Positions 33,315-61,999 of a DNA stretch of 64,000 nt are shown here, in pieces. Source of the DNA: Clavelina lepadiformis (taxonomy: Eukaryota > Chordata > Ascidiacea > Aplousobranchia > Clavelinidae); NCBI RefSeq assembly GCF_947623445.1, contig NC_135246.1, forward strand, positions 19,712,288 through 19,776,287, given 5' to 3'. The position numbers and the translations under genes are program-made. The notes below the pieces were generated by a model, which did not search any database, was not told the DNA's origin, and saw only the letters and a list, made by a program, of their open reading frames with translations. Numbering within the stretch: position 1 is the stretch's first letter; each line of letters begins with the position of its first letter.

Positions 33315-35886
33315 TTAGCAAATCAGATAATCCAAGCGTAAGGCAATGATACCATGAAAGGTGACGGCAATAAGTCTGAAAAGTCTGGCTTTAATTGGGT
33401 TCGGGAATAAATTCTGCATGGGAGTGTAGCTATCAGTTTTGCCTTGGAAAATCTACAAAAACAAACAAAATCGAAATAAACAGAGCTGTGTATCTTGATA
33501 TAAACAAAACTTAACTTTTATTAGAGTTTTATCACGAATATCAACTTGCCATGTCGTTTCCATCGACATCTTGTATCGTTTGCAGCTGATTGGTGGAATT
33601 TCCAAATGATATCTTGAAGCTTGTCACCCAATAGCCAAAATTTCCCTGGGTGACTACACCTGTCACTGTGGTCGGAGTTCTCAAGTCAACTTGAAGCCAC
33701 TCTCCTGGCGTCCCTGCATGAAAACATTACGTCATCATATCTTGGCAGCATTGATAAGATTCTTAGAGGCGAGATGCATTACTAACGATCTTTTGATGGA
33801 TGAGGAACCCAATATGTTTCTCCATCCAATCTTCCTTCATGAGCAGCATAAGGTTGAGGGTGGATCGACGATGCGGTCATTTCGTCATCTCGCACTTTCC
33901 CACTTTTCACACCAGCCAAGCATACTTCCTCTGTGAAATGTAAATATCATAAATATGTATGTGTATGTATGTAAATATCAAGTTGTGGAAATATTCTTAA
34001 ATGTGACGAATTACCTAAACCCATGACTTCGTATCGCAGAAATAAACAAAGTTCTTCTTCTGAGCTAAGTGTGGGGAGTTACCACAATCCCATAGAAATC
34101 ATATTTACCATCATTTACCGGTTAATTTAGTTCAATACATGGTTAAGACTGGGCAACAGCAAATTATTTGGTGGTATTTTAAAAGGTTTTGGAAATAGTT
34201 TAGATGATAATTCAAAAAATTTCTCATTTTGTCCACCCCCACAGCAGGTTAGGATGGTTATTTTACAAGTTTTGCCTTTATTTAATTTTATCCGGTTGTT
34301 CAAAAGAACTAATCGACACATAATAAAAGTATAAATCAGCAAGCATCAAAACCAAAGTTAAATGGACAATCTTGCCACCACAGTTTTACTGAATGGCTTG
34401 TATGTAATTGAATCCTTTATGAAGAAAAACACCCTAAACAAATTTCGAATTCACGGCATGTATCGGTTAAGAAGTTGTGTTTAATGTTTATATTTCTTGA
34501 AATTAAATTTACTAAATATAGAAATTAAATGTAAAAATTAGCTCTTTCAACATTGGTAACAATTTCCAAGACTGGAAAGTCTTGAAAAGAAGCAAGGACG
34601 GACCTGGAATTTAAGCAAACAGCCAAAGTTGATGTTGTTAATGGTTGTGGTTTGCTTTATTTACAAGCAGAGTTGAATAAACTGTGTTTTATTTGCTCGA
34701 TATTACGATAAGCAAAGGATTGGGCTCCATGTAAAATATACATCTTTGTACAACTGGACAGTGTAGTTTTAAAGTAATTTGAGGGACCGAAACGGTATCT
34801 TAAAATTTGTACCACGGTTCCTACAGCAGAAAATGAGCAGTTACGGTTTCTTAAAACACTAACTTGCGGTTTTTAAAATTTTTAGCGGTCGCCAAAGCCA
34901 AACCTTAAAAAACCTGCCGTTGGCTAAAGGGAAAGTCCCTATAATGCCTTATTTTCTAAGCTCTGACGTCAAACCAAACACCTTTATCTGGACTTGGAAT
35001 AAATATAAAGTAGAAAGTTTCAAAATAAAATAAAATATTTAAACACTTGAGCTTGGAAAGAAAACGTGTTTGCAAAGATACCCTGTCTGTTTGCTCAAGA
35101 TGGACTTGATGTGTTGGTGTGAATGTGTAAAGTTTCTTGCTGCATTAAGTTCGTGCAGCAACAATTTGTTGTCAAGTGTTAAGTTTAAGACATCAGATAA
35201 TTTATATAGAAATTGCTTACAAAAAGAAACCGTTAAAATGCATAAAAAAATGCTGTCAGTGAAAACATTCACATACTTTAGCTCGGTTCAACATGAAAAT
35301 GTGAAAACATGAGACATGAATGCGGTGAACATGATATGATATGATATAACATCGTGATATGAAGCTCTCATATGACATTTGACAAATGTTATGCTTTGCA
35401 AATATACCAGCAGTGTAATGGCTGCTGTATGGATCGAAATGTTTTTAAAAAACTTCTGCATCGTTTTAGACTGTTTGTTTAGATTATTTGACTGTTTTTT
35501 ATAGTCCAGCCACTCCTCGACATATTGTCATAATGCGACCAATCTACATTAATCTTTTGATAAAGCAACTTATTTGTTGTTGGTAAATTACCTCGAACAG
35601 CTTCATGTAAACGATCCAACGTATCCAACCTTTTCTTAAGTTCGACAACTTCGCTTAGATCGCATTGACACTGGCCAGGTGGACCGGGATTCCCCTTTGC
35701 TCCTTGCGTGCCCTGAGGTCCAGGTATTCCCCGTTTACCGGATGGTCCTCGCGGGCCTCTACTTTGCAGGATTCCTAGAGCATCACGTGGAACAGGCAAA
35801 CAAATCTGCTCATTTTGACTCAGCACAAACTTGGCCAGATTAGCAGCAAACACCAGCGCTAAGAAAGCAGCTATCAATGACGTCAT
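33315..35886 (-). CDS. F1: secreted collagen-stalk F5/8 type C (discoidin) lectin-like protein, 4 exons
   Basis: Exons in transcription order: 35886-35592, 33930-33787, 33713-33550, 33452-33315; 246 aa. Exon 1 encodes a signal peptide (MTSLIAAFLALVFAANLAKF), then about ten Gly-X-Y triplets beginning GPRGPSGKRGIPGPQG, a CQC pair and a short Leu/Lys coiled coil (VVELKKRLDTLDRLHEAV), a layout that trimerises collectin-type proteins. Exons 2-4 make one F5/8C domain: EEVCLAGVKSGKVRDDEMTA, GRLDGE, PGEWLQVDLRTPTTVTGVV, VTSFKISFGNSTNQLQ, VDGNDMIFQGKTDS, FRLIAVTFHG and ALRLDYLIC, with the terminal Cys pairing with the first. Such domains bind glycans or phospholipids, so a secreted recognition protein is likely. 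The intron after exon 3 begins with GCAAGT rather than GT (a GC-AG intron). An acceptor (TTTTGCAG) lies 18 nt before the ATG, suggesting a 5'-UTR intron or spliced leader. Confidence 0.85.
34759..34916. mobile_element. Old hAT-like MITE in the first intron of F1
   Basis: About 158 bp with ends CAG(T)GTAGTTTTAAAG and, in reverse complement, CAGGTTTTTTAAGGTT, plus internal matches to the element at 43798-43978. The flanking 8-mers CAACTGGA and CCGTTGGC match at only about half of positions, so the target duplication is eroded or doubtful. The paralogous copy is at 45646-45802. Confidence 0.55.
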
Positions 35887-36479
35887 CTTCACTTGTTTAT
35901 CAGTCTGCAAAATATAACAGATTATGACGTGAGAGAGAGCATTCTATGCAACAAAGATCTGCGCGAAAAATTTCATTCACAATTAGGTTAGAAACAAGAT
36001 GCTTTAAAGCAATTACAGAAATATACTTGTCCAATTGTGTGTGAAATATTAAGTAAAAAATAAGGATGTTCAAAAATTTTGGTAATAATGGAACGAAAAC
36101 TTTTATATCAAATTTTCTTGCAACCCGAACCGATGTCAAATATATTACGTCATAAAAATGAAAAACTGAAAATTATAGTAAAAGAATTTTATCAATATTT
36201 ATCGCGTTTATTGAACATTTACGTAATAATGGTTGGTTTGCTTTTTATATTCTTGGGATAAAAAGAAATAAAGCAACAGCGCTTCCGCCATAACATTGCC
36301 AAGTTATTTCGTTACTTGAGGAAAGAGCAACAATAAAGCGTTGATCAAATTATCAAAAAATCTGACGCTACATGTCGCTCTTTGCTTGCAATGTAAACTT
36401 CATCACCTCTAAGTCGGAGGCAATAAGAAAGGAAATGACGTCAGCAATATTTGAGACTCTTCTACCATAGAAAGAACAA

Positions 36480-36830
36480 AACCTACAGAATGAAAACTAG
36501 AGGTGCTAGAGAGAAACAAATGTCATGCGAAAGTTTTTCCAATTTTTGTTCATCGCAGATATTTGCCGTCGACTTATTTCAGTTTTCTATCAAGACTGAG
36601 TTCTTTCGCGGTTTTTGAGTTTCTCAAAGCACTTACAACCGTGACCCTGGTGTGGTTGGATGACTTTATAAAAGTGATTATATTTGAAAAAACAATCCGT
36701 GTTTTCATTTTGAATATTTTTATTTTCGTGTATTTCACACATTTCAGTGCAAAGAATCAGCTGCTTACGTATTTCTTCTTATACGGATAATACAACCAAG
36801 TCAGTCGGCGCAGTCATTAAAAGTTTTAGC
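36480..36830. other. Block-specific indel upstream of F1
   Basis: About 350 bp present here but absent between 47345 and 47375 in the paralogous block, where an A-run joins the flanks. I see no terminal repeats or coding content, so it may be an insertion here or a deletion there. Confidence 0.5.
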
Positions 36831-36884
36831 TCTCCACTTGTTTAGAGCTTATTTCCATTTCTAAGCTTTGAATACTGTCTATAG

Positions 36885-37377
36885 CGGGCGTGTGCAACCT
36901 TTTTCACTGGAGGGCCAAATAGAAATTTTGAATGATAACGCAGGCCGCATGAAATTTTTCAGAAAACAATTAATATCATTTTCTTATGAAAGTAGTTTAT
37001 GTAGTCAAAAAACAGATTTAATGCAGTCCACGACACACTTGTGCGACAGTTTATTGAAAAACTGTGAATAATTGTCGATGGAAGATGAGGAAACTAAATT
37101 CAGTCAAGCGTATTTAATCACAGATTAATGTGGTGTTTGATGTTGCGGATCTTTGCAAACTTTTGGAATATTTACTTTCACAGAACTACATTCTTACGCA
37201 GCAATCTTACATCACAAAGCTTCAGCGCAATATTACTGTACACAGCGCGCGAAAATTTCGCTTGCTTTGCTGTAAACCGCATCAAAGAGTGATGGCTAGT
37301 ATACACTTCTAACATTTTGCTGAACACCACGCGGGCCGCACGGAACAACCTGGCGGGCCGCTTGTTGCACCTGTCTG
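36885..37377. mobile_element. hAT-type MITE, copy at the left edge of the tandem array
   Basis: A 493-bp non-autonomous element. Imperfect 14-bp terminal inverted repeats: left CGGGCGTGTGCAAC, right CAGACAGGTGCAAC in reverse complement. A perfect 8-bp target duplication GTCTATAG lies at 36877-36884 and 37378-37385. Both ends show the GGGCC-rich subterminal sequence common in hAT MITEs. The same element with the same target duplication lies at 47413-47907 and 57944-58438, so one insertion was copied with its surroundings. Confidence 0.85.
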
Positions 37378-37998
37378 GTCTATAGGAATATTAAAATAAA
37401 TACCAACATCAAGTTATTCTTTTTACCAGGAAATCGTTTACTTTGAACAGGCTGAAAGCTGAAGCTTTTAGGAAAATACGAGCTTAATAACTATATTTAT
37501 CAGCGCTGAAGTTTGAATTATGACGTCGATTTTCATAGAAAAGCAACTACCAATAAGAGCGTCAGTTTATATCTGGTAAACAACTTGAAGTCGTTCAGTT
37601 TCAACTTTCAAAGCAATCGATACTTTGTTCCACAAAGTCATATTCGCCTGCTAGCATACAATTACCTATAGTCGTAAGCTTACTGTAAGTTCGACTGCAA
37701 TGTACTAGTCAGTTATTTGCGTAGTTAAGCTGCATTTATATAGAAAATATTCGAGTCAAAAAGTCTTTTTTTCCCGCATGTAACAACAAATATTTTGCGA
37801 CTGCACTGCACCATTTCCCATGCCCCGTGGATTGGTTAAAAATCACCTTTTTTCTTCGAATTTTTAAACAAAACTAAACCAAGCTCAGAGATTTGAAACA
37901 AATAGATTGGATCCTGACGTAAAGTATGATGCTAACAAATGACTCAGTTATAAGTGTCACCATGTCAGAGTTTATGACTTGTTTTATTTCAACCGGTC

Positions 37999-38190
37999 CA
38001 AGGCCGACCTAAGGAAGTGCGGGGCCCGATGCAAGAATTCATGACGACGATCATCGCTGATTATAAACAACATCAGCTGTGAACTAACAATGTGATTTGT
38101 CCAAAATAAAAGTTAAATTGATGTTTTGGTTCTAAGCAGCGCGAGTCACAACGCAGTCGCATCTCTCTCATTGACCTAAGGCCGGTCCTG
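37999..38190. mobile_element. hAT-like MITE in the unit spacer (unit 1)
   Basis: 192 bp with ends CAAGGCCGACCTAAGG and, in reverse complement, CAGGACCGGCCTTAGG (12 of 16 match). The flanking 8-mers AACCGGTC (37991-37998) and AACTCGTC (38191-38198) match at 6 of 8 positions, consistent with an aged hAT target duplication. Copies lie at 48529-48720 and 59060-59251. Confidence 0.65.
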
Positions 38191-38969
38191 AACTCGTCAT
38201 AGTTCGTATTCTCGCAGATTGATTGAAACATCAAATATATACACGCAAATAGTTTTGACTTACGTGTTTTTGTGACGGATTTGTCATGGTTATATTTTCT
38301 CTAAACAGGGTTACAATTCTTGCATTCACACGAAACGTGAAATACGGCAGAGTTTAACAGCAACTGAGCCGTTATATTTAGCTGATAAAGTTCAACTAAT
38401 TCAACCAAGATTTTTCTTGGCCAGGATGTATGAAGTCATAATAAAACAAACAAAAAAATCAAATCGAAGCAAAACGCTTTTATCGATATATTTTAGTCTT
38501 CGACTCTTACATCATCGGTATAGACTATAGACCTTTGATATATAGGTCTAATGTATAAGTGCCTTTAATTCGATGAATTGAATCTTAACCAAGTTTGACA
38601 AAACACCAAACGCCAAATACAATTTTCAAGAACTATAAGTTTTCGTATATCCCAGTGACAATTGGCAAATGTTTTATGAATACTAACGCTAAGGTTATGG
38701 TACGACTTACATACGAGGATATTGTGCACTATTGTATGTTATATATTGTATATATATTAATTTGCTCTGACTTGTACCGCGCGTGTATACGTCTGCAGGC
38801 ATCAAATAATAGAATAAACTCGTTTTTGATAAGGTTCGCATTTTGGCTTTCCTACAAATCTTTCTGTCTGTCCACGATAAGCAGAAATTAAAACATTCAT
38901 TAAACAGGCAGCAGCAAAGCAGCATAAATAGATCATCGCCGCGGTTATATCGCGTAAATATTTACAAGA

Positions 38970-40760
38970 GGCACAAAAATGCGTTTGCAGAATCCAAAAT
39001 AATCCAGCTTTTGTTATACCGCAGTGTTATGCTTGAAACAACGACAACAAGCAGCAGTGAGATTTTTGCACAAGATAATGACATGGAGTGTGTTTACTGG
39101 ATTTTGTGTTTGTTGTACAACTATGCACTCCTGTCAAGTCGTTTCCGATAACCCGCTCAATATACACATTGATTCGAGGAGCTTTTCATGACGAACTTTT
39201 ATGTATTTGGAATAAATTACTTGTTGTTTGTCCTGATTGTCTTTAAAACTTTGATATTTGAAGAAATATTCCTCAACAAATCCATAACTATATTAAACAC
39301 CCCAGCATCAACAAACGAAACTTTATTAGCATGTTAGCTTGGATTTAATATTAATCGGAATTCCGCTTCAAAATCGGGTGGTCTCTTCAAGTCGGTCGTG
39401 TTGTGGACTCAACAAATCACATAATCCAAGCGTAAGCCGCTGCGAGCGTAATAAGTGACCGCAATAAGTCTGAAGAGTCTGGCTCTAATTGGTATCGAGC
39501 ATATATTCTGCACGTGATTATCTGTGTCTTCAGTGTTGTCTTGGAAAATCTACAAAAACAAACAAAATCCAAATAAACAAAGCTGTGATATAAGCACAAC
39601 TTCTATCGAGTTTTATCACAAATACAAATTTACCATGTCGTTTCCATCGACATCTTGTGTCACTTGCAGGTGATTATTGGAATCTCCAAATGATATCTTG
39701 AAGCTTGTCACCCTCCAACCAACAGATCTCTAAGTGACTACACCTGTCACTGTGGTCGGAGTTCTCAAGTCAGCTTGAAGCCACTCTCCTGGCGTCCCTG
39801 CATAAAAACATTACGTCATCATATCTTGGCAGCATTGATAAGATTCTTAGATGCGAGACGTGCGAGACGTTTTCGAGGCAAAAATGTGTTTGTAGAATCC
39901 AAAATAATCCAGCTTTGTTATACCGCAGTGTTATGCTTGAAACAACGACAACAAGCAGCAGTGAGATTTTTGTACAAGATAATGACATGGAGTGTGTTTA
40001 CCGGATTTTGTGTTTGTTGTGCTACTATGCACTCCTGTCAAGTCGCTTCTGATAATCTGCTCAATATACACATCGATTCGAGGAACTTTTCATGACGAAC
40101 TTTTATGTCTTTGGAATAAATTACTTGTTGTTTGTCCTGGTTGTCTTTAAAACTTTGAAATTTGAAGAAATACTCCTCAACAAATCCATAACTATATTAA
40201 ACACCGCAGCATCAACAAACGAGACTTTGTTAACAAGTTAGCTTGAATTTAATATTAATCGGAATTCCACTTCAACATCGGGTGGTCTCTTCAAGCCGGT
40301 CGTGTCGTGGACTTAACAAGTCAGATAATCCAAACGTAAGACGATGCCACGATTAAAGGTGACGACAATAAGTCTGAAGTATTTAGCTTTAATTGGGTTC
40401 GGGAATATATTCTGCACGTGAGTGTCGCTATCAGTGTTGCCCTGAAAAATCTATAAAAACAAACAAAATCGAAATAAACAGAGCTGTGTATCCTGAAATA
40501 AACACAAATTAACTTTTATTGAGCTTTGTCACGAATATTCAACTAACCATGTCGTTTCCATCGACATCTTGTATCACTTGCAGCTGATTGGTTGAATTTC
40601 CAAATGATATCTTGAAGCTTGTCACCCACAAACCCGCAGCTCCCTGGGTGACTACACCTGTCACTGTGGTCGGAGTTCTCAAGTCAACCTGAAGCCACTC
40701 TCCTGGCGTCCCTGCATGAAAATATTACGTCATTATATCTTGGCAGCATTGATAGAATTC
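38970..40760. repeat. Internal duplication of about 905 bp generating F5/8C sets C and B (unit 1)
   Basis: The stretch from about 38970 to 39870 repeats from about 39880 to 40760 with an offset near 905 bp. Each copy carries a spacer starting with a GTTTG(C/T)AGAATCCAAAATAA motif followed by F5/8C exons 4 and 3. The left copy (set C) joins directly to the spacer of the right copy and so lacks exon 2. Confidence 0.75.
39409..39797 (-). pseudogene. F5/8C set C1: broken discoidin exon pair
   Basis: Two exons equivalent to exons 3 and 4 of F1: 39797-39634 (TPGEWLQADLRTPTTVTGVV) and 39549-39409 (HVQNIC, ARLFRLIAVTYYA, LRLDYVIC then TGA). The first contains an in-frame TAG where the intact copies have the Gln of TQG, and the exon 2 equivalent was lost at the duplication junction. 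Splice sites are still present, so it is a relatively young dead copy; it is broken identically in all three units. Confidence 0.8.
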
Positions 40761-40937
40761 TTAAAGGCGAGACGCATTACTTACAATATTTTGATGGATG
40801 AGGAAGCCAATATCTTCCTGACTCTCCATCCAATCTTCCTTCATGAGGAGCATAATTAGAATGAGGGTGGATCGACGACGCGGTCATTTCGTCATCTCGC
40901 ACTTTCCCACTTTTCACACCAGCCAAGCATAATTCCT
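40313..40937 (-). CDS. F5/8C set B1: intact discoidin exon set without its own collagen exon
   Basis: Three exons: 40937-40785, 40711-40548, 40450-40313, together a complete F5/8C domain (EELCLAGVKSGKVRDDEMTA, PGEWLQVDLRTPTTVTGVV, VDGNDMIFQGNTDS, LRLDYLTC and stop) with intact acceptors, donors and frame. Exon 2 starts in phase 1, exactly as in F1 and F2, so it could be spliced to the collagen exon at 46475-46769 by skipping the nearer F2 set. Its spike-1 loop (SSIHPHSNYAPHEGRLDGES) and spike-3 loop (TQGAAGLWV) differ from those of F1 and F2. The intron upstream of exon 2 matches that of F1 only to about 41160, then unrelated sequence begins, so its original collagen exon was probably lost. 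It is either an alternative 3' cassette or a recently orphaned gene part. Confidence 0.6.
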
Positions 40938-41164
40938 CTGTAAAATATAAATATCAAGTTGTTGAAATATTCTTAAATGTGGGGAATTCCCAAAAAAAGT
41001 TCTTCTGAGCGACCTGCGGGGAGTTACCATAATCTCATAAAAATCATATTCAGCAGCAGACGATGATAACTCTCTGTTCAACAGCAAATAACATGGTGTT
41101 ATTTTAAATGGTTTTGGAAGTATTTGAGATGCCAATTCAAAAAGTATTTCATTTTGTTATCGTT

Positions 41165-42985
41165 GTTTTCCTAATTTTACATTGGGACCATCTCACAAAA
41201 ACAACAAAATTTTGAGAACAAATGGTGAATTTCTATTGGATGGTGTTTACCAGACGACATAACCAATTTAGAGCTTTCATTTAAACCTTAATACTTCTAT
41301 AACCAGTTAACGAAACGATTCCAATTTTAACAAGCGTAGGACGATTTAGCCAGGCCCTGTCCAGACTTCCGTTGAAACTCGATTTTAATTACGCCTCCAA
41401 GTGGCAAGTTATTAAGTAACAAATTTATGTTAAATTGGGCTACAGATAGTAGGCGCTGTGTTAGATCTTTGATCAAAAAGAAGCTAGTGACCGACAGAGA
41501 AATTCTTCCCACTTCCAACGATATTAACGTTGTTGAAATTGATAAAGCCAGTGTAATTTCAGTTGCGAACTACTGCACTTGGGGCAGAAATGCATTGATT
41601 TAAATAGGGTCAAAAGTCGTTTACGCGACCTCAAAGTACTCTTTGCATAGACAACTTATTGTATTTTCTCGTTATTGCATTATCTTTTTATTTGGAACGA
41701 CAACTTAGGAGGGCTCTCCCCGGCGATTGGCGAGTAACGACCCGCTAGCGACTGCAACTAAGACTGGTAACACGAACAATTAAGAATCACTTTCAATTGT
41801 CGCTCGATTAACGAACTTTGTACTTATTTTGTGGTGTAAGTCGGCCAACACTGACTTAGTTGTAACTGGTCCGATGAGGACTCATCGAGAACTTATCTAC
41901 TTACAACAACAAAAACTAAACTGTCGAGCAAATGTCAATACTAGTTAATACAAATGTTATATTGTAGAAAGATTTTGGACAATGATTTGTGCGCCAAATT
42001 GTGCTCCACGTGAAAAGTGCCGAGTACCGGTGTAACGATTATTTTCTCGTTCATATAGCCAGGCTTAATTTCACATTTACGGTGAACCGCGACACCTTTA
42101 ACTGCGAGTAACTGTGAGTAACTGTGAGTAACCTTCAACTGTGAGACTTTGTAGCGTTATCACGCTAACGAAACAAACCGATGATCTTCGAAAAGCCACA
42201 TTTAATTGGTCTCAGCCAGACGCCGACTCAGACTAAAAAAACTCTAAAAAGCGCACAATATTTATATAGAATAAGGGTGCCAAATCATGTGATTAAAATA
42301 GTTAACAAACGCGTAGGTGCTGATTGGTAAAAAATGCTTCAAGCAAAAACACGGTGATAAGTAACGACACAACATGTGAGGAACAAAGTCCGTAACACCG
42401 GGACTGACCGAAATTTCTTGACAAAAAATAATTCGGTTCTATTTTCGAAAGTACCGACGGTATCGGTAAGTATCGGTAACGCGATAGTACCGCGGTACAG
42501 TAATTCGGTACTATACTAGCCGCGGTACTGCCTTGGTAGGTTGGAAAACTTGCTACAAATCAATGAAAATAAATTTTTAATAAAGATAATAATGGTTGGT
42601 ATCGTCCAATCATACGCTCAAGGCTGATTGACTTATCTTGTAACAACCACGCCAACCTGCAAGCTACAGTAAGAGTTAGTGCTTTTCTAAGCGCAAAGTT
42701 AAGTTGATTCTAATTCACTTTTCACTTCATCTTCAAAGTGAGAAGCTTTCACTGCACTCAGTTGTAAACCTGCTTCATGAAAGCTCGGTCACAATTTGCT
42801 GATCACTTTTTGGAAAAAGATTTTTTATAGCTAGTTCTTGGCTCTTGCTTAAAAACGAGATTATAATAATCAAGCTACCATTTTTAACCAGCCTTGTTAT
42901 GAAAATATTAAATTCTGCTTTGATGATAATATATGGACATAGTACTTTTTTTTAACAAACTGTTGCAAAATAATATTTCGCACCA
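41165..42985. other. 1.8-kb spacer between set B1 and the LINE tail
   Basis: Unrelated to the paralogous F1 block. It contains a short TAACTGTGAG minisatellite (42100-42129) and, around 42430-42540, a cluster of imperfect palindromes built on CGGTACT and GGTATCGGTA, such as often lie near hAT-type element ends. No protein-coding content is recognised. It probably includes transposon remains whose ends I cannot define. Confidence 0.45.
42100..42129. repeat. 10-bp minisatellite, 3 copies (unit 1)
   Basis: Three copies of TAACTG(T/C)GAG. Unit 2 has the same three at 52631-52660; unit 3 has sixteen. Confidence 0.9.
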
Positions 42986-42989
42986 TTGT

Positions 42990-43410
42990 TTGTTTGTTTT
43001 TCGTGTGTTTTCCCACGCTTTTATTTTTGTTAGTTAATTATCAGTTAGATTTTATTCTGTTTGTTATCACCTTGATTTCTTTTGTCCACTGCGTTATTTC
43101 ATGTTGTTTTCGTTTGCGCCTCAAGTGTTTCGATGTGGTCGAACGGTCAGTAAAAACTGCCATAATAGTTGGCATAGAAAAAAACTTAAGGCAGATAAGC
43201 ACAGCGAAAGAGATGTGTTTCAGAGATTTTTTGAAAACACTGAATCTGTGCGCGTTGCGCACGTCCCGCGGTAGACTGTTCCACAGCCTAGAAGCAGCTG
43301 CGGAAAACATTATGTCGCTGTACATCGAGGTCCGACAAGGTGGAACTTGCACGAAGTTCCTAGACTGGGATCTCAGAACTCTCGTTGGGCTATAACGGCA
43401 CAGACGCGTT
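42990..43410 (-). mobile_element. LINE 3' end, unit 1
   Basis: Minus-strand frame with RVLRSQSRNFVQVPPCRT, then SAAASRLWNSLPRDVRNA and FKKSLKH, the conserved C-terminus of LINE ORF2, followed by about 150 bp of 3' UTR-like sequence. It is 5'-truncated, with no reverse transcriptase or endonuclease domain here. It lies just beyond the 3' end of gene F2, as its counterpart does for F1. Confidence 0.8.
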
Positions 43411-43797
43411 TGCTGATATAAAATAGTTAAACAAATATAAGCTCTCGGTACTCAGTTGAAATACATTTTATTGTTTATTTTTCGCCATTGACAGTGGGAA
43501 GAAAAATTACGGTACCTAGTACTTAATCTATGCAAATTTGTACTGGCAAAAACTTTCGTCAGTTCGAGGATAAAGAAAGCTTGTCATGCTAGTGCAGGCC
43601 TAGAAACCAGTTATCGTACCACGTCGAATACATACACAGTAAACATTGCTATAAATCATGTCAATATAGTTATACGCGGACAAACCTTTGCAAAATGCTG
43701 TCATTGTGGCTTGTTTTATATCTTAATGTCCAACAAAAGAAGTCAATAAACCCACATAATCAATTAATTTTCATGTTTTTTGTTTTATTATTGTGAC

Positions 43798-43978: not shown

Positions 43979-44228
43979 ATTGTGACTCATATATATATTT
44001 GGTTTAAAGTCACCAAAGTGCGAAACTGCGCTTTGGCTACGAAATGCAAAACCACGGGCACAAAATTAAACAATTGAACCAATAAATCCAATTAAGCAAT
44101 GAGAAAAAGTGGACTTAATATTATAGCATGGGTTTAACACTAATATTAACAGGAAAGACAAAATCCGACAACATCGACATCGGAAACTCAACATCAGGTT
44201 GTCTCTTCAGGTTGGTCATGTCATCGAC

Positions 44229-46769
44229 TTAGCAAATGAGATAATCCAAGCGTAAGAAGATACCACGACGAAAGGTGACGGCAGTAAGTCTGAAGTGTCT
44301 GGCTTTAATTGGGTTCGGGAATATATTCTGCACATGATTAGTGCTATCAGTGTTTCCTTGGAAAATCTACAAAAACAAACAAAATCAAAATAAAGAAAGC
44401 TGGGTAGTCTGATATAAACACAACTTAACTTTTATCGAACTTTATCACAAACATTCAATTTACCATGTCGTTTCCATCGACATCTTGTATCACTTGCAGG
44501 TGATTGGTGGAATTCCCAAATGATATCTTGAAGCTTGTCACCCAATAACTACTACTTCCCTGGGTGACTACACCTGTCACTCTGGTCGGAGTTCTCAAGT
44601 CAACTTGAAGCCATTCTCCTGGCGTCTCTGCATGAAAATATTACGTCATCATATCTTGGCAGCATTGATAAAAACTCTTAGAGGCGAAACGCTTGACTTA
44701 CGATATTTTGATGAATGAGGAAACCAAACTTTCTCTCCATCCAATCTTCCTCCATGAGCAACATGATTAGGATGAGAATTGATCGACGATGCGGTCATTT
44801 CGTCATCTTGCACTTTTCCACTTTTCACACCAGCCAAGCAAACTTCCTCTGTGAAATGTAAATATCAAGTTGCTGAAATGTTCTTAAATGTGACGAATTT
44901 CCAAAACTCATGACCTGGTATCGCTGAAATAAATAAAGTTCTTCTTCTGAGCTAAGTGTGGGGAGTTACCACAATCCAATAGAAATCATATTTACCAGCA
45001 TTTACCGGTTAATTTAGTTCAATACATGGTTAACACTGGTCAACAGCAAATTATTTGGTGTTATTTTAAAAGGTTTTGGAAATATTTAAAACGCCAATTC
45101 AAAAAACATCTCATTTTGTCCACCACCACGGCAAGTTATGATGGTTATGTTACAAGTCCTGCCTTTATTTAATTTTATCCAATTGTTCAAAAGAACTAAT
45201 CGATACATAATAAAAGCATAAATTAACAAGCATCAAAACCATAGTTAAATGGACAATCTTGCCACCGCAGTATCACTGAATGGTTTGTACGTAATTGAAT
45301 CCTTTATGAAGAAAAAATACAAAACAAATTTCAAATTCGCGGCATGTATCGGTTAAAGTGTTGTGTTTAATGGTTATATTTCTTGAAATTAAATTTACTA
45401 AATATAGAAATTTAATGTAAAAATTAGCTTTTTCAACATTGGTAACACTTTCCAAGACTGGAAAGTCTTGAAAAGAAGCAAGGACTGACCTGGAAGTTAA
45501 GCAAACAACCCGAGTTTATGTTGTTTATGGTTGTGTTGTGCTTTGTCTACAAGCAGAGTTGAATAAAGTATCTTTTATTTGCTGGGTATTAGGATAAGCA
45601 AAGGATTGGGCTCCATGTAAAATATACATCTTTGTACAACTGGCCAGCGTAGTTTTTAGGTATCTTGAGTGTCCGAAACGATATCTCAAAATTTGTACCA
45701 CGGTACCTACAGCAGAAAATGAGCAGTTGCAGTCTCTTAAAACATTTAATTGAGGTTTTTAAAATTTTAGCGGTCGCCAAAGATAAACCTTAAAAAAACC
45801 TGCCGTTGGCTAAAGGGAGAGTCCCTATAATGCCTTATTTTCTAAGCTCTGACGTCAAACCAAACGCCATTATCTGCATTTGGGATAAAAATAAAGAACG
45901 AAGTTTCAAAATAAAATAAAATATTTAAACACTTGAGCTTGGAAGGAAAACGTTTTTGCAAAGATGCCCTGTCTGTTTGCTCAAGATGAACTTGATTTGT
46001 TGGTGTGAGTTTTGTAAAGTTTCTTGGTGCGTTAATTTCGTGCAATATCAATTTGTTGTCAAGTGTTAAATTGAAGACATCAGATTAGTTATTTAGAAAT
46101 TGGTTACAAACATAAACTACTAAAATGCATAAAAAAATGCTGTCAGTGAAAACATTCATATATTTTAGCTCGGTGCAACATGATAATATGAAAACGTGAG
46201 ATATGATTGCGGTGAACAAAGTCGTGATATGAAGCTCTCATGTGACATTTGACAAATGTTATGCTTTGCAATATACCATCAGTGTAATGGCTGCTGTATG
46301 GATCGAAATGTTTTCAAAAAAACTTCTGCATCGTTTTAGCTTGTTTGTTTAGCTTGTTTGTTTAGATTATTTGACTGTTTTTTATAGTCCAGCCACTCCT
46401 CGACATATTGTCATAATGCGACCAATCTACATTAATCTTTTGATAAAGCAACTTATTTATTGTTGGTAAATTACCTCGAAGAGCTTCATGTAAACGATCC
46501 AACGTATCCAACCTTTTCTTAAGCTCGACAACTTCGCTTAGATCGCATTGACACTGGCCAGGTGGACCGGGATTCCCCTTTGCTCCGTGCGTGCCTTGAG
46601 GTCCTGGTATTCCCCGTTTACCGGATGGTCCTCGCGGGCCTCTACTTTCCAGGATTCCTAGAGCATCACGTGGAACAGGCAAACAAATCTGCTCATTTTG
46701 ACTCAGCACAAATGTCGCCAGATTAACAGCAAACACCAGCGCTAAGAAAGCAGCTATTATTGACGTCAT
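44229..46769 (-). CDS. F2: secreted collagen-stalk F5/8 type C lectin-like protein, 4 exons
   Basis: Exons in transcription order: 46769-46475, 44848-44702, 44627-44464, 44366-44229; 247 aa. It has the same architecture as F1: signal peptide MTSIIAAFLALVFAVNLATF, ten Gly-X-Y triplets, CQC, the VVELKKRLDTLDRLHEAL coiled coil and one F5/8C domain. All introns are GT-AG, including the one that is GC-AG in F1. Differences from F1 concentrate in the F5/8C spike-1 loop (SSINSHPNHVAHGGRLDGE) and spike-3 loop (TQGSSSYWV), whereas the framework and collagen exon are nearly unchanged. The frame is open upstream of the chosen ATG as far as 46859, but the ATG just before the signal peptide is preferred because an acceptor lies 18 nt before it. 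Likely role: multivalent extracellular recognition of glycans, lipids or microbes. Confidence 0.85.
45646..45802. mobile_element. Old hAT-like MITE in the first intron of F2
   Basis: Counterpart of 34759-34916, with ends CAGCGTAGTTTTTAGG and, in reverse complement, CAGGTTTTTTTAAGGTT. Present in both blocks, so it is older than the F1/F2 split. Repeated in unit 2 at 56177-56333. Confidence 0.55.
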
Positions 46770-49938: not shown

Positions 49939-50327
49939 TCAACAAATCACATAATCCAAGCGTAAGCCGCTGCGAGCGTAATAAGTGACCGCAATAAGTC
50001 TGAAGAGTCTGGCTCTAATTGGTATCGAGCATATATTCTGCACGTGATTATCTGTGTCTTCAGTGTTGTCTTGGAAAATCTACAAAAACAAACAAAATCC
50101 AAATAAACAAAGCTGTGATATAAGCACAACTTCTATCGAGTTTTATCACAAATACAAATTTACCATGTCGTTTCCATCGACATCTTGTGTCACTTGCAGG
50201 TGATTATTGGAATCTCCAAATGATATCTTGAAGCTTGTCACCCTCCAACCAACAGATCTCTAAGTGACTACACCTGTCACTGTGGTCGGAGTTCTCAAGT
50301 CAGCTTGAAGCCACTCTCCTGGCGTCC
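49939..50327 (-). pseudogene. F5/8C set C2: broken discoidin exon pair
   Basis: Exons 50327-50164 and 50079-49939, a copy of set C1 with the same premature TAG and the same missing exon 2. Confidence 0.8.
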
Positions 50328-50843: not shown

Positions 50844-51468
50844 TTAACAAGTCAGATAATCCAAACGTAAGACGATGCCACGATTAAAGGTGACGACAAT
50901 AAGTCTGAAGTATTTAGCTTTAATTGGGTTCGGGAATATATTCTGCACGTGAGTGTCGCTATCAGTGTTGCCCTGAAAAATCTATAAAAACAAACAAAAT
51001 CGAAATAAACAGAGCTGTGTATCCTGAAATAAACACAAATTAACTTTTATTGAGCTTTGTCACGAATATTCAACTAACCATGTCGTTTCCATCGACATCT
51101 TGTATCACTTGCAGCTGATTGGTTGAATTTCCAAATGATATCTTGAAGCTTGTCACCCACAAACCCGCAGCTCCCTGGGTGACTACACCTGTCACTGTGG
51201 TCGGAGTTCTCAAGTCAACCTGAAGCCACTCTCCTGGCGTCCCTGCATGAAAATATTACGTCATTATATCTTGGCAGCATTGATAGAATTCTTAAAGGCG
51301 AGACGCATTACTTACAATATTTTGATGGATGAGGAAGCCAATATCTTCCTGACTCTCCATCCAATCTTCCTTCATGAGGAGCATAATTAGAATGAGGGTG
51401 GATCGACGACGCGGTCATTTCGTCATCTCGCACTTTCCCACTTTTCACACCAGCCAAGCATAATTCCT
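50844..51468 (-). CDS. F5/8C set B2: intact discoidin exon set without its own collagen exon
   Basis: Exons 51468-51316, 51242-51079, 50981-50844. Same coding content as set B1, with splice sites and frame intact. It lies 3' (in transcription sense) of gene F3 and of the LINE tail, and could act as an alternative 3' cassette for the collagen exon at 57006-57300. Confidence 0.6.
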
Positions 51469-51695
51469 CTGTAAAATATAAATATCAAGTTGTTGAAATA
51501 TTCTTAAATGTGGGGAATTCCCAAAAAAAGTTCTTCTGAGCGACCTGCGGGGAGTTACCATAATCTCATAAAAATCATATTCAGCAGCAGACGATGATAA
51601 CTCTCTGTTCAACAGCAAATAACATGGTGTTATTTTAAATGGTTTTGGAAGTATTTGAGATGCCAATTCAAAAAGTATTTCATTTTGTTATCGTT

Positions 51696-53516: not shown

Positions 53517-53520
53517 TTGT

Positions 53521-53941
53521 TTGTTTGTTTTTCGTGTGTTTTCCCACGCTTTTATTTTTGTTAGTTAATTATCAGTTAGATTTTATTCTGTTTGTTATCA
53601 CCTTGATTTCTTTTGTCCACTGCGTTATTTCATGTTGTTTTCGTTTGCGCCTCAAGTGTTTCGATGTGGTCGAACGGTCAGTAAAAACTGCCATAATAGT
53701 TGGCATAGAAAAAAACTTAAGGCAGATAAGCACAGCGAAAGAGATGTGTTTCAGAGATTTTTTGAAAACACTGAATCTGTGCGCGTTGCGCACGTCCCGC
53801 GGTAGACTGTTCCACAGCCTAGAAGCAGCTGCGGAAAACATTATGTCGCTGTACATCGAGGTCCGACAAGGTGGAACTTGCACGAAGTTCCTAGACTGGG
53901 ATCTCAGAACTCTCGTTGGGCTATAACGGCACAGACGCGTT
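53521..53941 (-). mobile_element. LINE 3' end, unit 2
   Basis: Copy of 42990-43410 with the same ORF2 C-terminal signature. Confidence 0.8.
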
Positions 53942-54328
53942 TGCTGATATAAAATAGTTAAACAAATATAAGCTCTCGGTACTCAGTTGAAATACATTTT
54001 ATTGTTTATTTTTCGCCATTGACAGTGGGAAGAAAAATTACGGTACCTAGTACTTAATCTATGCAAATTTGTACTGGCAAAAACTTTCGTCAGTTCGAGG
54101 ATAAAGAAAGCTTGTCATGCTAGTGCAGGCCTAGAAACCAGTTATCGTACCACGTCGAATACATACACAGTAAACATTGCTATAAATCATGTCAATATAG
54201 TTATACGCGGACAAACCTTTGCAAAATGCTGTCATTGTGGCTTGTTTTATATCTTAATGTCCAACAAAAGAAGTCAATAAACCCACATAATCAATTAATT
54301 TTCATGTTTTTTGTTTTATTATTGTGAC

Positions 54329-54509
54329 CAGTGTTTTTTTAAGGTGTTTTGGTGTTTTGGGAAACCGAAACGGTCCCCCAAATTTCTCCAGCGGTTTCCC
54401 AAAATTTGGACTTGCAACTACAGGCTATTTTTTGGTATTTAAATGAAACACTTGCGGTGTCTTAAAACTACTTAGTGGTCACCCAAACCAAACCTTAAAA
54501 AAAAACCTG
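54329..54509. mobile_element. hAT-type MITE downstream of F3 (unit 2)
   Basis: Copy of 43798-43978, flanked by the same ATTGTGAC target duplication. Confidence 0.9.
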
Positions 54510-54759
54510 ATTGTGACTCATATATATATTTGGTTTAAAGTCACCAAAGTGCGAAACTGCGCTTTGGCTACGAAATGCAAAACCACGGGCACAAAATTAA
54601 ACAATTGAACCAATAAATCCAATTAAGCAATGAGAAAAAGTGGACTTAATATTATAGCATGGGTTTAACACTAATATTAACAGGAAAGACAAAATCCGAC
54701 AACATCGACATCGGAAACTCAACATCAGGTTGTCTCTTCAGGTTGGTCATGTCATCGAC

Positions 54760-57300
54760 TTAGCAAATGAGATAATCCAAGCGTAAGAAGATACCACGAC
54801 GAAAGGTGACGGCAGTAAGTCTGAAGTGTCTGGCTTTAATTGGGTTCGGGAATATATTCTGCACATGATTAGTGCTATCAGTGTTTCCTTGGAAAATCTA
54901 CAAAAACAAACAAAATCAAAATAAAGAAAGCTGGGTAGTCTGATATAAACACAACTTAACTTTTATCGAACTTTATCACAAACATTCAATTTACCATGTC
55001 GTTTCCATCGACATCTTGTATCACTTGCAGGTGATTGGTGGAATTCCCAAATGATATCTTGAAGCTTGTCACCCAATAACTACTACTTCCCTGGGTGACT
55101 ACACCTGTCACTCTGGTCGGAGTTCTCAAGTCAACTTGAAGCCATTCTCCTGGCGTCTCTGCATGAAAATATTACGTCATCATATCTTGGCAGCATTGAT
55201 AAAAACTCTTAGAGGCGAAACGCTTGACTTACGATATTTTGATGAATGAGGAAACCAAACTTTCTCTCCATCCAATCTTCCTCCATGAGCAACATGATTA
55301 GGATGAGAATTGATCGACGATGCGGTCATTTCGTCATCTTGCACTTTTCCACTTTTCACACCAGCCAAGCAAACTTCCTCTGTGAAATGTAAATATCAAG
55401 TTGCTGAAATGTTCTTAAATGTGACGAATTTCCAAAACTCATGACCTGGTATCGCTGAAATAAATAAAGTTCTTCTTCTGAGCTAAGTGTGGGGAGTTAC
55501 CACAATCCAATAGAAATCATATTTACCAGCATTTACCGGTTAATTTAGTTCAATACATGGTTAACACTGGTCAACAGCAAATTATTTGGTGTTATTTTAA
55601 AAGGTTTTGGAAATATTTAAAACGCCAATTCAAAAAACATCTCATTTTGTCCACCACCACGGCAAGTTATGATGGTTATGTTACAAGTCCTGCCTTTATT
55701 TAATTTTATCCAATTGTTCAAAAGAACTAATCGATACATAATAAAAGCATAAATTAACAAGCATCAAAACCATAGTTAAATGGACAATCTTGCCACCGCA
55801 GTATCACTGAATGGTTTGTACGTAATTGAATCCTTTATGAAGAAAAAATACAAAACAAATTTCAAATTCGCGGCATGTATCGGTTAAAGTGTTGTGTTTA
55901 ATGGTTATATTTCTTGAAATTAAATTTACTAAATATAGAAATTTAATGTAAAAATTAGCTTTTTCAACATTGGTAACACTTTCCAAGACTGGAAAGTCTT
56001 GAAAAGAAGCAAGGACTGACCTGGAAGTTAAGCAAACAACCCGAGTTTATGTTGTTTATGGTTGTGTTGTGCTTTGTCTACAAGCAGAGTTGAATAAAGT
56101 ATCTTTTATTTGCTGGGTATTAGGATAAGCAAAGGATTGGGCTCCATGTAAAATATACATCTTTGTACAACTGGCCAGCGTAGTTTTTAGGTATCTTGAG
56201 TGTCCGAAACGATATCTCAAAATTTGTACCACGGTACCTACAGCAGAAAATGAGCAGTTGCAGTCTCTTAAAACATTTAATTGAGGTTTTTAAAATTTTA
56301 GCGGTCGCCAAAGATAAACCTTAAAAAAACCTGCCGTTGGCTAAAGGGAGAGTCCCTATAATGCCTTATTTTCTAAGCTCTGACGTCAAACCAAACGCCA
56401 TTATCTGCATTTGGGATAAAAATAAAGAACGAAGTTTCAAAATAAAATAAAATATTTAAACACTTGAGCTTGGAAGGAAAACGTTTTTGCAAAGATGCCC
56501 TGTCTGTTTGCTCAAGATGAACTTGATTTGTTGGTGTGAGTTTTGTAAAGTTTCTTGGTGCGTTAATTTCGTGCAATATCAATTTGTTGTCAAGTGTTAA
56601 ATTGAAGACATCAGATTAGTTATTTAGAAATTGGTTACAAACATAAACTACTAAAATGCATAAAAAAATGCTGTCAGTGAAAACATTCATATATTTTAGC
56701 TCGGTGCAACATGATAATATGAAAACGTGAGATATGATTGCGGTGAACAAAGTCGTGATATGAAGCTCTCATGTGACATTTGACAAATGTTATGCTTTGC
56801 AATATACCATCAGTGTAATGGCTGCTGTATGGATCGAAATGTTTTCAAAAAAACTTCTGCATCGTTTTAGCTTGTTTGTTTAGCTTGTTTGTTTAGATTA
56901 TTTGACTGTTTTTTATAGTCCAGCCACTCCTCGACATATTGTCATAATGCGACCAATCTACATTAATCTTTTGATAAAGCAACTTATTTATTGTTGGTAA
57001 ATTACCTCGAAGAGCTTCATGTAAACGATCCAACGTATCCAACCTTTTCTTAAGCTCGACAACTTCGCTTAGATCGCATTGACACTGGCCAGGTGGACCG
57101 GGATTCCCCTTTGCTCCGTGCGTGCCTTGAGGTCCTGGTATTCCCCGTTTACCGGATGGTCCTCGCGGGCCTCTACTTTCCAGGATTCCTAGAGCATCAC
57201 GTGGAACAGGCAAACAAATCTGCTCATTTTGACTCAGCACAAATGTCGCCAGATTAACAGCAAACACCAGCGCTAAGAAAGCAGCTATTATTGACGTCAT
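54760..57300 (-). CDS. F3: secreted collagen-stalk F5/8 type C lectin-like protein, 4 exons
   Basis: Exons in transcription order: 57300-57006, 55379-55233, 55158-54995, 54897-54760; 247 aa, with no amino-acid difference from F2 that I could find. It has the same signal peptide, collagen triplets, coiled coil and F5/8C domain, and the same flanking elements. If the assembly is right, F2 and F3 are dosage copies that have not diverged. Confidence 0.85.
56177..56333. mobile_element. Old hAT-like MITE in the first intron of F3
   Basis: Unit 2 copy of 45646-45802. Confidence 0.5.
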
Positions 57301-57943
57301 CTTCACTTGTTTATCAGTCTGCAAAATAGAACAGATTATGACGTGTGAGAGAGCATTCTGTGCAACAAAGATCTGCGCGAAACATTTCATTCACAATTTG
57401 GTTAGAAACAAGATGCTTTAACCATTTACAGAAATACACTTGTGCAATTGTGTGTAAAATATTAAGTAAAATGTAAGGATTTGCAAAAATTTTGGTATTA
57501 ATAGAACGAAAACTTTTAACCTCAAATTTTCTGCAAACCCGAACCGATGCCAAATATATTACGTCATAAAAATGAAAAACTGAAAATTATAGTTAAAGAA
57601 TTCTATCTACATTCATCGCGTTTATTGAACATATACGTAATAATGGTTGACTTGCTTTTTATATTATTTGGATAAAAGGAAATAAAGCAACAGCGCCTCC
57701 GCAATAACATTGCCAAGTTATTTCGTTACTGGACGAACGAGCAACAACAAAGCGACAATCAAATTATCAAAAAAGCTGACGCTACATGTCGCTCTTTGCT
57801 TGCAATGTAAACTTCATCACCTCTAAGTCGGAGGCAATAAGAAAGGAAATGACGTCAGCAATATTTGAGACTCTTCTACTAATGAAAGAAAAAAAAAAGT
57901 TTAGAGCTTATTTCCATTTCTAAGTTTTGACTACTGTCTATAG

Positions 57944-58438
57944 CGGGCGTGTGCGACCTTTTTCACTGGAGGGCCAAATACAAAACTTTGAATGATAACG
58001 CGGGCGGCATGAACGTTTTCAAAAAAAAAATTGGTAACATTTTTCTATGAAACTAGTTTATGTAGACAAGAAACAGATTTAGTGCAGTCCACGACACACG
58101 TGTGTGACAGTTTATTGGAAAACTGTGAATAATTGTCGATGGAAGATGAGGAAACTAAATTCAGTCAAGCGTATTTAATCACAAATTATTGTGATTTTTG
58201 CTGTTGCAGATCTTTGCAAATTTTTGGAATATTTGCTTTCACAGAACTACATTCTTACGCAGCATTCTTACATCACAAAGCTTCAGCGCAATATTACTGT
58301 ACACAGCGCGCGAAAATTTCGCTTGCTTTGCTGTAAACCGCATCAAAGAGTGATGGCTAGTATACACTTCTAACATTTTGCTGAGCACCACGCGGGCCGC
58401 ACGGAACAACCTGGCGGGCCGCTGGTTGCACCTGTCTG
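57944..58438. mobile_element. hAT-type MITE at the unit 2/unit 3 boundary
   Basis: Same element as 47413-47907, with GTCTATAG at 57936-57943 and 58439-58446. Confidence 0.85.
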
Positions 58439-59059
58439 GTCTATAGGAATATTAAAATAAATACCAACATCAAGTTATTCTTTTTACCAGGAAATCGTTT
58501 ACTTTGAACAGGCTGAAAGCTGAAGCTTTTAGGAAAATACGAGCTTAATAACTATATTTATCAGCGCTGAAGTTTGAATTATGACGTCGATTTTCATAGA
58601 AAAGCAACTACCAATAAGAGCGTCAGTTTATATCTGGTAAACAACTTGAAGTCGTTCAGTTTCAACTTTCAAAGCAATCGATACTTTGTTCCACAAAGTC
58701 ATATTCGCCTGCTAGCATACAATTACCTATAGTCGTAAGCTTACTGTAAGCTCGACTGCAATGTACTAGTCAGTTATTTGCGTAGTTAAGCTGCATTTAT
58801 ATAGAAAATATTCGAGTCAAAAAGTCTTTTTTTCCCGCATGTAACAACAAATATTTTGCGACTGCACTGCACCATTTCCCATGCCCCGTGGATTGGTTAA
58901 AAATCACCTTTTTTCTTCGAATTTTTAAACAAAACTAAACCAAGCTCAGAGATTTGAAACAAATAGATTGGATCCTGACGTAAAGTATGATGCTAACAAA
59001 TGACTCAGTTATAAGTGTCACCATGTCAGAGTTTATGACTTGTTTTATTTCAACCGGTC

Positions 59060-59251
59060 CAAGGCCGACCTAAGGAAGTGCGGGGCCCGATGCAAGAATT
59101 CATGACGACGATCATCGCTGATTATAAACAACATCAGCTGTGAACTAACAATGTGATTTGTCCAAAATAAAAGTTAAATTGATGTTTTGGTTCTAAGCAG
59201 CGCGAGTCACAACGCAGTCGCATCTCTCTCATTGACCTAAGGCCGGTCCTG
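59060..59251. mobile_element. hAT-like MITE in the unit spacer (unit 3)
   Basis: Copy of 37999-38190, two unit lengths further on. Confidence 0.65.
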
Positions 59252-60469
59252 AACTCGTCATAGTTCGTATTCTCGCAGATTGATTGAAACATCAAATATA
59301 TACACGCAAATAGTTTTGACTTACGTGTTTTTGTGACGGATTTGTCATGGTTATATTTTCTCTAAACAGGGTTACAATTCTTGCATTCACACGAAACGTG
59401 AAATACGGCAGAGTTTAACAGCAACTGAGCCGTTATATTTAGCTGATAAAGTTCAACTAATTCAACCAAGATTTTTCTTGGCCAGGATGTATGAAGTCAT
59501 AATAAAACAAACAAAAAAATCAAATCGAAGCAAAACGCTTTTATCGATATATTTTAGTCTTCGACTCTTACATCATCGGTATAGACTATAGACCTTTGAT
59601 ATATAGGTCTAATGTATAAGTGCCTTTAATTCGATGAATTGAATCTTAACCAAGTTTGACAAAACACCAAACGCCAAATACAATTTTCAAGAACTATAAG
59701 TTTTCGTATATCCCAGTGACAATTGGCAAATGTTTTATGAATACTAACGCTAAGGTTATGGTACGACTTACATACGAGGATATTGTGCACTATTGTATGT
59801 TATATATTGTATATATATTAATTTGCTCTGACTTGTACCGCGCGTGTATACGTCTGCAGGCATCAAATAATAGAATAAACTCGTTTTTGATAAGGTTCGC
59901 ATTTTGGCTTTCCTACAAATCTTTCTGTCTGTCCACGATAAGCAGAAATTAAAACATTCATTAAACAGGCAGCAGCAAAGCAGCATAAATAGATCATCGC
60001 CGCGGTTATATCGCGTAAATATTTACAAGAGGCACAAAAATGCGTTTGCAGAATCCAAAATAATCCAGCTTTTGTTATACCGCAGTGTTATGCTTGAAAC
60101 AACGACAACAAGCAGCAGTGAGATTTTTGCACAAGATAATGACATGGAGTGTGTTTACTGGATTTTGTGTTTGTTGTACAACTATGCACTCCTGTCAAGT
60201 CGTTTCCGATAACCCGCTCAATATACACATTGATTCGAGGAGCTTTTCATGACGAACTTTTATGTATTTGGAATAAATTACTTGTTGTTTGTCCTGATTG
60301 TCTTTAAAACTTTGATATTTGAAGAAATATTCCTCAACAAATCCATAACTATATTAAACACCCCAGCATCAACAAACGAAACTTTATTAGCATGTTAGCT
60401 TGGATTTAATATTAATCGGAATTCCGCTTCAAAATCGGGTGGTCTCTTCAAGTCGGTCGTGTTGTGGAC

Positions 60470-60858
60470 TCAACAAATCACATAATCCAAGCGTAAGCCG
60501 CTGCGAGCGTAATAAGTGACCGCAATAAGTCTGAAGAGTCTGGCTCTAATTGGTATCGAGCATATATTCTGCACGTGATTATCTGTGTCTTCAGTGTTGT
60601 CTTGGAAAATCTACAAAAACAAACAAAATCCAAATAAACAAAGCTGTGATATAAGCACAACTTCTATCGAGTTTTATCACAAATACAAATTTACCATGTC
60701 GTTTCCATCGACATCTTGTGTCACTTGCAGGTGATTATTGGAATCTCCAAATGATATCTTGAAGCTTGTCACCCTCCAACCAACAGATCTCTAAGTGACT
60801 ACACCTGTCACTGTGGTCGGAGTTCTCAAGTCAGCTTGAAGCCACTCTCCTGGCGTCC
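60470..60858 (-). pseudogene. F5/8C set C3: broken discoidin exon pair
   Basis: Exons 60858-60695 and 60610-60470, broken in the same way as sets C1 and C2. Confidence 0.8.
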
Positions 60859-61374
60859 CTGCATAAAAACATTACGTCATCATATCTTGGCAGCATTGAT
60901 AAGATTCTTAGATGCGAGACGTGCGAGACGTTTTCGAGGCAAAAATGTGTTTGTAGAATCCAAAATAATCCAGCTTTTGTTATACCGCAGTGTTATGCTT
61001 GAAACAACGACAACAAGCAGCAGTGAGATTTTTGTACAAGATAATGACATGGAGTGTGTTTACCGGATTTTGTGTTTGTTGTGCTACTATGCACTCCTGT
61101 CAAGTCGCTTCTGATAATCTGCTCAATATACACATCGATTCGAGGAACTTTTCATGACGAACTTTTATGTCTTTGGAATAAATTACTTGTTGTTTGTCCT
61201 GGTTGTCTTTAAAACTTTGAAATTTGAAGAAATACTCCTCAACAAATCCATAACTATAATAAACACCGCAGCATCAACAAACGAGACTTTGTTAACATGT
61301 TAGCTTGGATTTAATATTAATCGGAATTCCACTTCAACATCGGGTGGTCTCTTCAAGCCGGTCGTGTCGTGGAC

Positions 61375-61999
61375 TTAACAAGTCAGATAATCCAAACGTA
61401 AGACGATGCCACGATTAAAGGTGACGACAATAAGTCTGAAGTATTTAGCTTTAATTGGGTTCGGGAATATATTCTGCACGTGAGTGTCGCTATCAGTGTT
61501 GCCCTGAAAAATCTATAAAAACAAACAAAATCGAAATAAACAGAGCTGTGTATCCTGAAATAAACACAAATTAACTTTTATTGAGCTTTGTCACGAATAT
61601 TCAACTAACCATGTCGTTTCCATCGACATCTTGTATCACTTGCAGCTGATTGGTTGAATTTCCAAATGATATCTTGAAGCTTGTCACCCACAAACCCGCA
61701 GCTCCCTGGGTGACTACACCTGTCACTGTGGTCGGAGTTCTCAAGTCAACCTGAAGCCACTCTCCTGGCGTCCCTGCATGAAAATATTACGTCATTATAT
61801 CTTGGCAGCATTGATAGAATTCTTAAAGGCGAGACGCATTACTTACAATATTTTGATGGATGAGGAAGCCAATATCTTCCTGACTCTCCATCCAATCTTC
61901 CTTCATGAGGAGCATAATTAGAATGAGGGTGGATCGACGACGCGGTCATTTCGTCATCTCGCACTTTCCCACTTTTCACACCAGCCAAGCATAATTCCT
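61375..61999 (-). CDS. F5/8C set B3: intact discoidin exon set, upstream part beyond window
   Basis: Exons 61999-61847, 61773-61610, 61512-61375. Same coding content as sets B1 and B2. Any collagen exon it could join lies past position 64000. Confidence 0.6.

Follow-up and report, generated by a model that had tools for sequence, protein, structure and literature searches.

The window analysed here, a stretch of 64,000 nucleotides from chromosome 7 of Clavelina lepadiformis (C7:19712288-19776287), carries a minus-strand array of tandem genes in which an exon for a short collagen stalk is followed by exons for F5/8C (discoidin) heads. Coordinates are those of the window unless prefixed C7, C2 or C3. 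Units u0, u1, u2 and part of u3 lie within the window; past its end lie the remainder of u3, then u4, which is a fourth near-copy, and u5, which has diverged. A first-pass annotation had given each unit one collagen exon and two complete head sets, F and B, either of which might be joined to the stalk. This layout holds for two of the three collagen exons in the window, while the one at 35.9 kb has a single set, with no second set found 3' of it within the window. A partial third set (exons e2 and e3 only, e2 with a stop) sits 3' of every B. The features are as follows.

35592..35886, minus strand: u0 collagen (stalk) exon, coding part, with putative signal peptide, 10 Gly-X-Y triplets and coiled coil
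33315..33930, minus strand: u0 single F5/8C set (e1 33787-33930, e2 33550-33713 with a GC donor, e3 33315-33452)
46475..46769, minus strand: u1 collagen (stalk) exon, coding part, donor after 46475
44229..44848, minus strand: u1 set F (e1 44702-44848, e2 44464-44627, e3 44229-44366)
43145..43628, no strand assigned: retroelement-like piece between sets F and B
40313..40937, minus strand: u1 set B, for which no separate stalk exon was found (e1 40785-40937, e2 40548-40711, e3 40313-40450)
39409..39797, minus strand: u1 partial set (e2 39634-39797 with an in-frame TAG; e3 39409-39549 open, acceptor intact)
57006..57300, minus strand: u2 collagen (stalk) exon, coding part
54760..55379, minus strand: u2 set F
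50844..51468, minus strand: u2 set B
49939..50327, minus strand: u2 partial e2-e3 set, stop in e2
61375..61999, minus strand: u3 set B (the u3 stalk at C7:19780248 and F set at C7:19778328 lie beyond the window)
60470..60858, minus strand: u3 partial e2-e3 set, stop in e2

Direct reading of the first exon gives an N-terminus that is hydrophobic and signal-like, along with ten Gly-X-Y triplets; the exon also codes for a coiled coil, and an acceptor-like TTTTGCAG stands 18 bases ahead of the ATG in all eight stalk exons examined. The head is one F5/8C domain built from three exons: e1 (phase 1-1), e2 (1-0) and e3 (0-stop). Both stalk plus F (74.8 bits, 8.8e-21) and B (83.7 bits, 1.5e-23) pass the PF00754 (F5_F8_type_C) cut-off of 28.2; the Pfam Collagen score of stalk plus F, 25.0 bits, falls under its cut-off of 27.2. 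Identity as a fucolectin (F-type lectin) was considered and set aside, Pfam at E<=0.1 returning PF00754, PF22633 and Collagen for stalk plus F, and PF00754 and PF22633 for B; a C-type lectin or fibrinogen-like head is likewise ruled out by the Pfam assignment to F5/8C. The best protein structures by sequence match are neuropilin b1, factor V/VIII C and lactadherin domains, and in the PDB match alignment the variable loop positions fall on loop regions of a neuropilin-2 domain. Loops of this sort bind ligands in the neuropilin-2 domain. Sets F and B both have open frames and GT/AG sites and are in phase with the shared collagen donor, and the splice sites named in the first-pass annotation are all present (donors at 46475 and 57006, F acceptors at 44848 and 55379, B acceptors at 40937 and 51468).

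Units u1 to u4 are near-identical recent copies. Pairwise, u2, u3 and u4 differ by 4, 7 and 11 substitutions in 10.5 kb; u1 and u2 differ at 3 sites outside the last two 1-kb bins of u1 and at 83 within them. The coding sequence of B is identical in all four copies, and that of F shows no more than one silent and one replacement difference; the four units thus represent one recent case rather than four. Copies only 4-11 substitutions apart could also be produced by faulty assembly, but this is very improbable: unit lengths (10518, 10661, 10531 and 10883 bases) and scattered sites differ among the copies, diverged loci with the order stalk, set 1, set 2 exist outside the four, and the assembly, which part of PMC10884593 describes as PacBio with a quality value (QV) of 67.4, counts against it. 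Upstream of set B, an array of 10-base repeats (63190-63290) is expanded in u3, a unit of 10,661 bases to the 10,531 of u2.

A second cluster, on the plus strand at C7:19.93-19.99 Mb, contains four stalk exons; three of its loci (a, c and d) have a second set and one (b) does not. The second set of a (a_set2; L015, about C7:19939070-19944897) carries an insertion resembling a long terminal repeat (LTR) element, with similar ends, in its e2-e3 intron, and the flanking splice sites are intact. Nearby, at C7:19949263-19955255 (L016), four 1.9-kb tandem repeats each hold the end of e2 plus e3, with neither e1 nor a stalk.

The firmest result is the presence of fast-evolving binding loops on a constrained framework. 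Framework columns and loops were defined by variability among 22 loci outside both clusters (L031-L052) rather than from structure; counts of private changes omit b_set1 and three copies each of F and B, all as duplicates, and leave the truncated set Xu unaligned. In the first sets, the ratio of nonsynonymous to synonymous rates (dN/dS) is 0.38 in the framework and 1.78 in the loops; loop values run from 1.53 to 1.78 in pooled comparisons and from 1.09 to 1.94 in three single pairs. Private framework changes number 20 synonymous and 22 replacement (P 2.6e-4, tested against neutrality), or 30 and 42 by a looser count (P 1.8e-4), and constraint reaches P<0.05 in 18 of 18 settings. Divergence among first sets, apart from a_set1 and b_set1, is 16.4% in e1 and 14.6% in e3 against 8.0% in e2 and 7.3% and 10.2% in the introns. 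For F, u0 and d, the proportion of replacement differences (pN) is 0.030-0.041 in the stalk and 0.107-0.138 in the head, so that heads differ 3-5 times more; with all pairs except those involving a pooled, stalk and head stand at 0.095 and 0.122, and the contrast is therefore confined to this trio. Diversifying selection on the loops is well supported by these patterns. The recognition role proposed in the first-pass annotation fits them, and we infer that the heads recognise ligands.

Taken together, anatomy, copy number, intron breakpoints and substitution patterns, all directly observed, form the base of the explanation that we favour as the probable one, though with appreciable doubt. The array would consist of tandem, secreted, collectin-like genes, each with a short collagen stalk, which would trimerise, bearing a single F5/8C head; the working gene would be the stalk exon plus the first head set. 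Diversity of heads would arise chiefly at the DNA level, through duplication of units, whole or only in their 3' part, with diversifying selection acting on binding loops over a constrained framework while the stalks of the closest units change little. Stalkless extra sets would come from partial 3' duplications with a breakpoint in the stalk-e1 intron; most would since have become relaxed or damaged, and B may be the only one still under constraint. The initial observation is thus largely right, and the stronger biology is rapid diversification of heads on stalks that hardly change in the closest trio.

Remnants of the stalk-e1 intron, without the collagen exon, lie upstream of six of six second sets: 0.9-1.0 kb upstream of c_set2, u5set2, d_set2 and Xu, about 150 bases upstream of a_set2, and about 220 diverged bases upstream of B. 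The break point in this intron is identical in c_set2 and u5set2. B, c_set2 and u5set2 have a common 3' flank, the e2-e3 fragments likewise share one, and colinearity between B and c_set2 extends as far as the next stalk. The retroelement-like middle piece (43145..43628), which we take to be a retroelement tail and whose open reading frame has no Pfam match, lies between set 1 and set 2 in F/B and at the diverged loci C7:19976582 and C7:19796327 (c and u5), as well as 3' of the one set that u0 has (C7:19745361). These features suggest a two-set arrangement that arose before F/B, c and u5 separated. Full sets, e2-e3 fragments and e3-only fragments form a graded series at the locus, as expected of debris from partial duplication, and the extra stalkless sets look like partial 3' duplications. 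Given such common descent, the shared phase 1 and intact acceptors of F and B, which are indeed present, are inherited; they are not evidence of splicing, nor independent evidence of swapping.

Damage and probable relaxation among the other second sets point the same way. The e2 donor is lost in u5set2, the e2 acceptor in d_set2, and e2 is truncated in Xu; frames are open and splice sites usable in every one of the seven distinct first sets, of which one has a GC donor. Framework deviations amount to 7 of 93 in c_set2, 9 of 93 in d_set2, 5 of 95 in a_set2 and 10 of 95 in u5set2; among first sets they are 1, 1, 4, 4 and 5, with 10 and 10 of 102 for the diverged a/b pair. Pooled, the second sets of c, d, a and u5 show 8 synonymous and 27 replacement private changes (dN/dS 0.98, P 0.55), or 19 and 46 by the looser count (P 0.13), and divergence across second sets is 15.1% in e1, 15.4% in e3 and 13.8% and 9.2% in the introns. 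Relaxation of these sets is likely, and since they mostly look like relaxed or damaged partial duplicates, a broad cassette system is not supported.

Several observations weigh against this reading of the extra sets. There is no lesion in c_set2; constraint in the four pooled sets is significant (P<0.05) in 4 of 18 settings, and d_set2 alone reaches that level by the looser count (8 synonymous, 9 replacement; P 0.024). Of 18 settings, only 2 let Fisher's test separate the first sets from these four at P<0.05. All 20 pairwise gaps in second-set exons keep the frame, although the pairs are not independent, and intron 1 of the second sets is nearly as diverged as e1. B itself, with no lesion and few framework changes, is unlike debris. 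Finally, the placement of poly(A) signals would suit one pre-mRNA spanning F to B. An AATAAA or ATTAAA is present within 100 nt past the stop in B (ATTAAA at +59), c_set2, u5set2 and the two e2-e3 fragments examined, is absent within 400 nt past the stop of F, u5set1, c_set1, a_set2 and Xu, and occurs about 110 or 250 nt past the stop of a, b, u0, d_set1 and d_set2; such hexamers are, however, frequent by chance in DNA this rich in A+T.

Set B is accordingly the place where the cassette proposal can be weighed most closely. If B is used, F would be skipped and B joined to the upstream collagen exon, no other stalk having been found for it. A search of the interval from F e3 to B e1 gave no collagen exon, in agreement with the first-pass annotation, and the 3.3 kb upstream of B yielded only weak candidates for a first exon of its own (one 21-aa GTRAG candidate without a signal peptide and two signal-like open reading frames with poor donors). 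Trans-splicing of a leader onto B was also considered; since B has its first in-frame ATG within the domain, secretion of the resulting head would not be expected. A double-headed F+B protein is excluded, F e2 ending in phase 0, B e1 beginning in phase 1 and F e3 carrying a stop; the phases would thus force a choice between F and B.

Constraint on the B framework is fairly stable, yet built on few changes. B has no lesion in any of its four copies and deviates from the framework at 1 of 94 positions; its private framework changes are 3 synonymous and 0 replacement (P 0.012), or 5 and 1 by the looser count (P 0.003). Constraint reaches P<0.05 in 14 of 18 settings, with three to six changes beneath the test, and Fisher's test separates B from the four other second sets at that level in 8 of 18. 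These figures make B a reasonable candidate for an alternative 3' cassette giving two heads per stalk, a use that is plausible though somewhat short of an even chance. The same few changes are compatible with recent loss, and the proposal does not generalise to the other second sets, two of which have broken splice sites. The lesion count is a weak test for B and is not leaned on: in a neutral simulation the probability of no lesion is 0.18 at a branch length of 0.035 (0.38 to 0.05 over branches of 0.02 to 0.07), and that of at most one lesion in three related sets is 0.034.

Were cassettes in use, mixtures of exons (F e1 with B e2, or with e3 of B or of the partial set) would also be in phase, with seven ordered in-frame combinations available, e1 and e2 each coming from F or B and e3 from any of the three sets (F, B and the partial one). 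That one stalk exon yields several proteins per unit in this way is possible but less likely than not.

B could instead be a recently orphaned head, selected until its stalk was lost and now silent, an alternative to which we give tentative weight. Its few private changes would follow, as would the larger numbers of framework deviations in c_set2, d_set2, a_set2 and u5set2. Against it, the 3' flank shared by B, c_set2 and u5set2, the colinearity of B with c_set2 and the stalkless breakpoint common to c_set2 and u5set2 suggest that the stalk was lost before those splits took place; for B, whose upstream DNA is different, this falls short of proof.

The extra sets might also serve as gene conversion donors for the expressed heads. 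The nearest relative shifts along a_set2, from F in e2 (96.3%) to B in e3 (92.0%), and long shared runs appear in several pairs in a GENECONV-like test, which is suggestive only, as it treats exons and introns as if they evolved at one rate and carries no correction for the 55 pairs compared. Synonymous divergence of heads against nearby noncoding divergence, 0.141 against 0.076 for B/c_set2 and 0.141 against 0.074 for F/d, would also fit. No tract of clear direction was seen in these comparisons, and we regard a donor role as unlikely.

Relatives elsewhere in the genome place the extra sets in context; the comparison is between a C2 cluster and the two C7 clusters, with the C6 clusters left out. 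Among the matches listed at C2:24.58-24.79 Mb, stalks and e2 exons stand at no less than 16:16, one e2 lying 3' of each stalk, against the recurrent extra sets of the two C7 clusters; one e3 match (24670215) lies 2.1 kb beyond the nearest e2 among those matches. On C3, an intact head set (C3:2406860-2407484, L053) shares its strand with a complete relative 19 kb upstream of it. Neither the 11.9 kb upstream nor a genome-wide stalk search gave a convincing stalk match for it, and by sequence it is a further stalkless head.

Comparison with known systems helps to set out what is distinctive. The head belongs to the same domain family as those of neuropilin b1, factor V/VIII C and lactadherin; to our knowledge, those proteins have neither a collagen stalk nor tandem spare heads. 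Like the mutually exclusive cassettes of Dscam, the head sets are in phase and lie 3' of an exon that they would share, although in Clavelina the sets are terminal, consist of three exons, include one extra set with a signal of constraint, and are known from DNA alone. Ficolins and collectins, ascidian ficolins among them (PMC3269628, in part), likewise combine a secreted collagen stalk with a C-terminal recognition head, but that head is fibrinogen-like or a C-type lectin, not F5/8C. Oyster sperm bindin (Crassostrea), as covered in part of PMC5712786, has exons in tandem for lectin domains whose jellyroll class is similar, binding loops under positive selection (compare loop dN/dS of 1.78 with 0.38 in the framework of the first sets here), recombination, and a retroelement beside the domain exons. 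In bindin, however, the F-type lectin domains are strung in one protein and alternative splicing is seen in cDNA, according to the same portion of that source, whereas the Clavelina heads are F5/8C domains carried by a collagen stalk; phase and stop make them mutually exclusive, and they have so far been read from the genome only. A literature search over titles and abstract openings, with subscription papers outside its scope, returned no stalk-plus-F5/8C architecture in tunicates. A large family of stalked F5/8C genes, with e1 and e3 of the first sets diverging beyond the introns, would be a candidate recognition repertoire, and set B offers a sharp test case for one stalk serving two heads, poly(A) RNA reads of the species being on deposit (run ERR10908613, PMC10884593). 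If several heads per stalk were true, this would be a germline-encoded stalked lectin of a chordate that is diversified by splicing.

Outside the array, eight open reading frames from 4.6-24.2 kb of the window matched no Pfam family. Elsewhere on chromosome 7, a relative at C7:19237290-19239277 (L054) has its own short stalk exon, and its e2 carries, beside a variable loop, a TGA in place of the Trp of most relatives.

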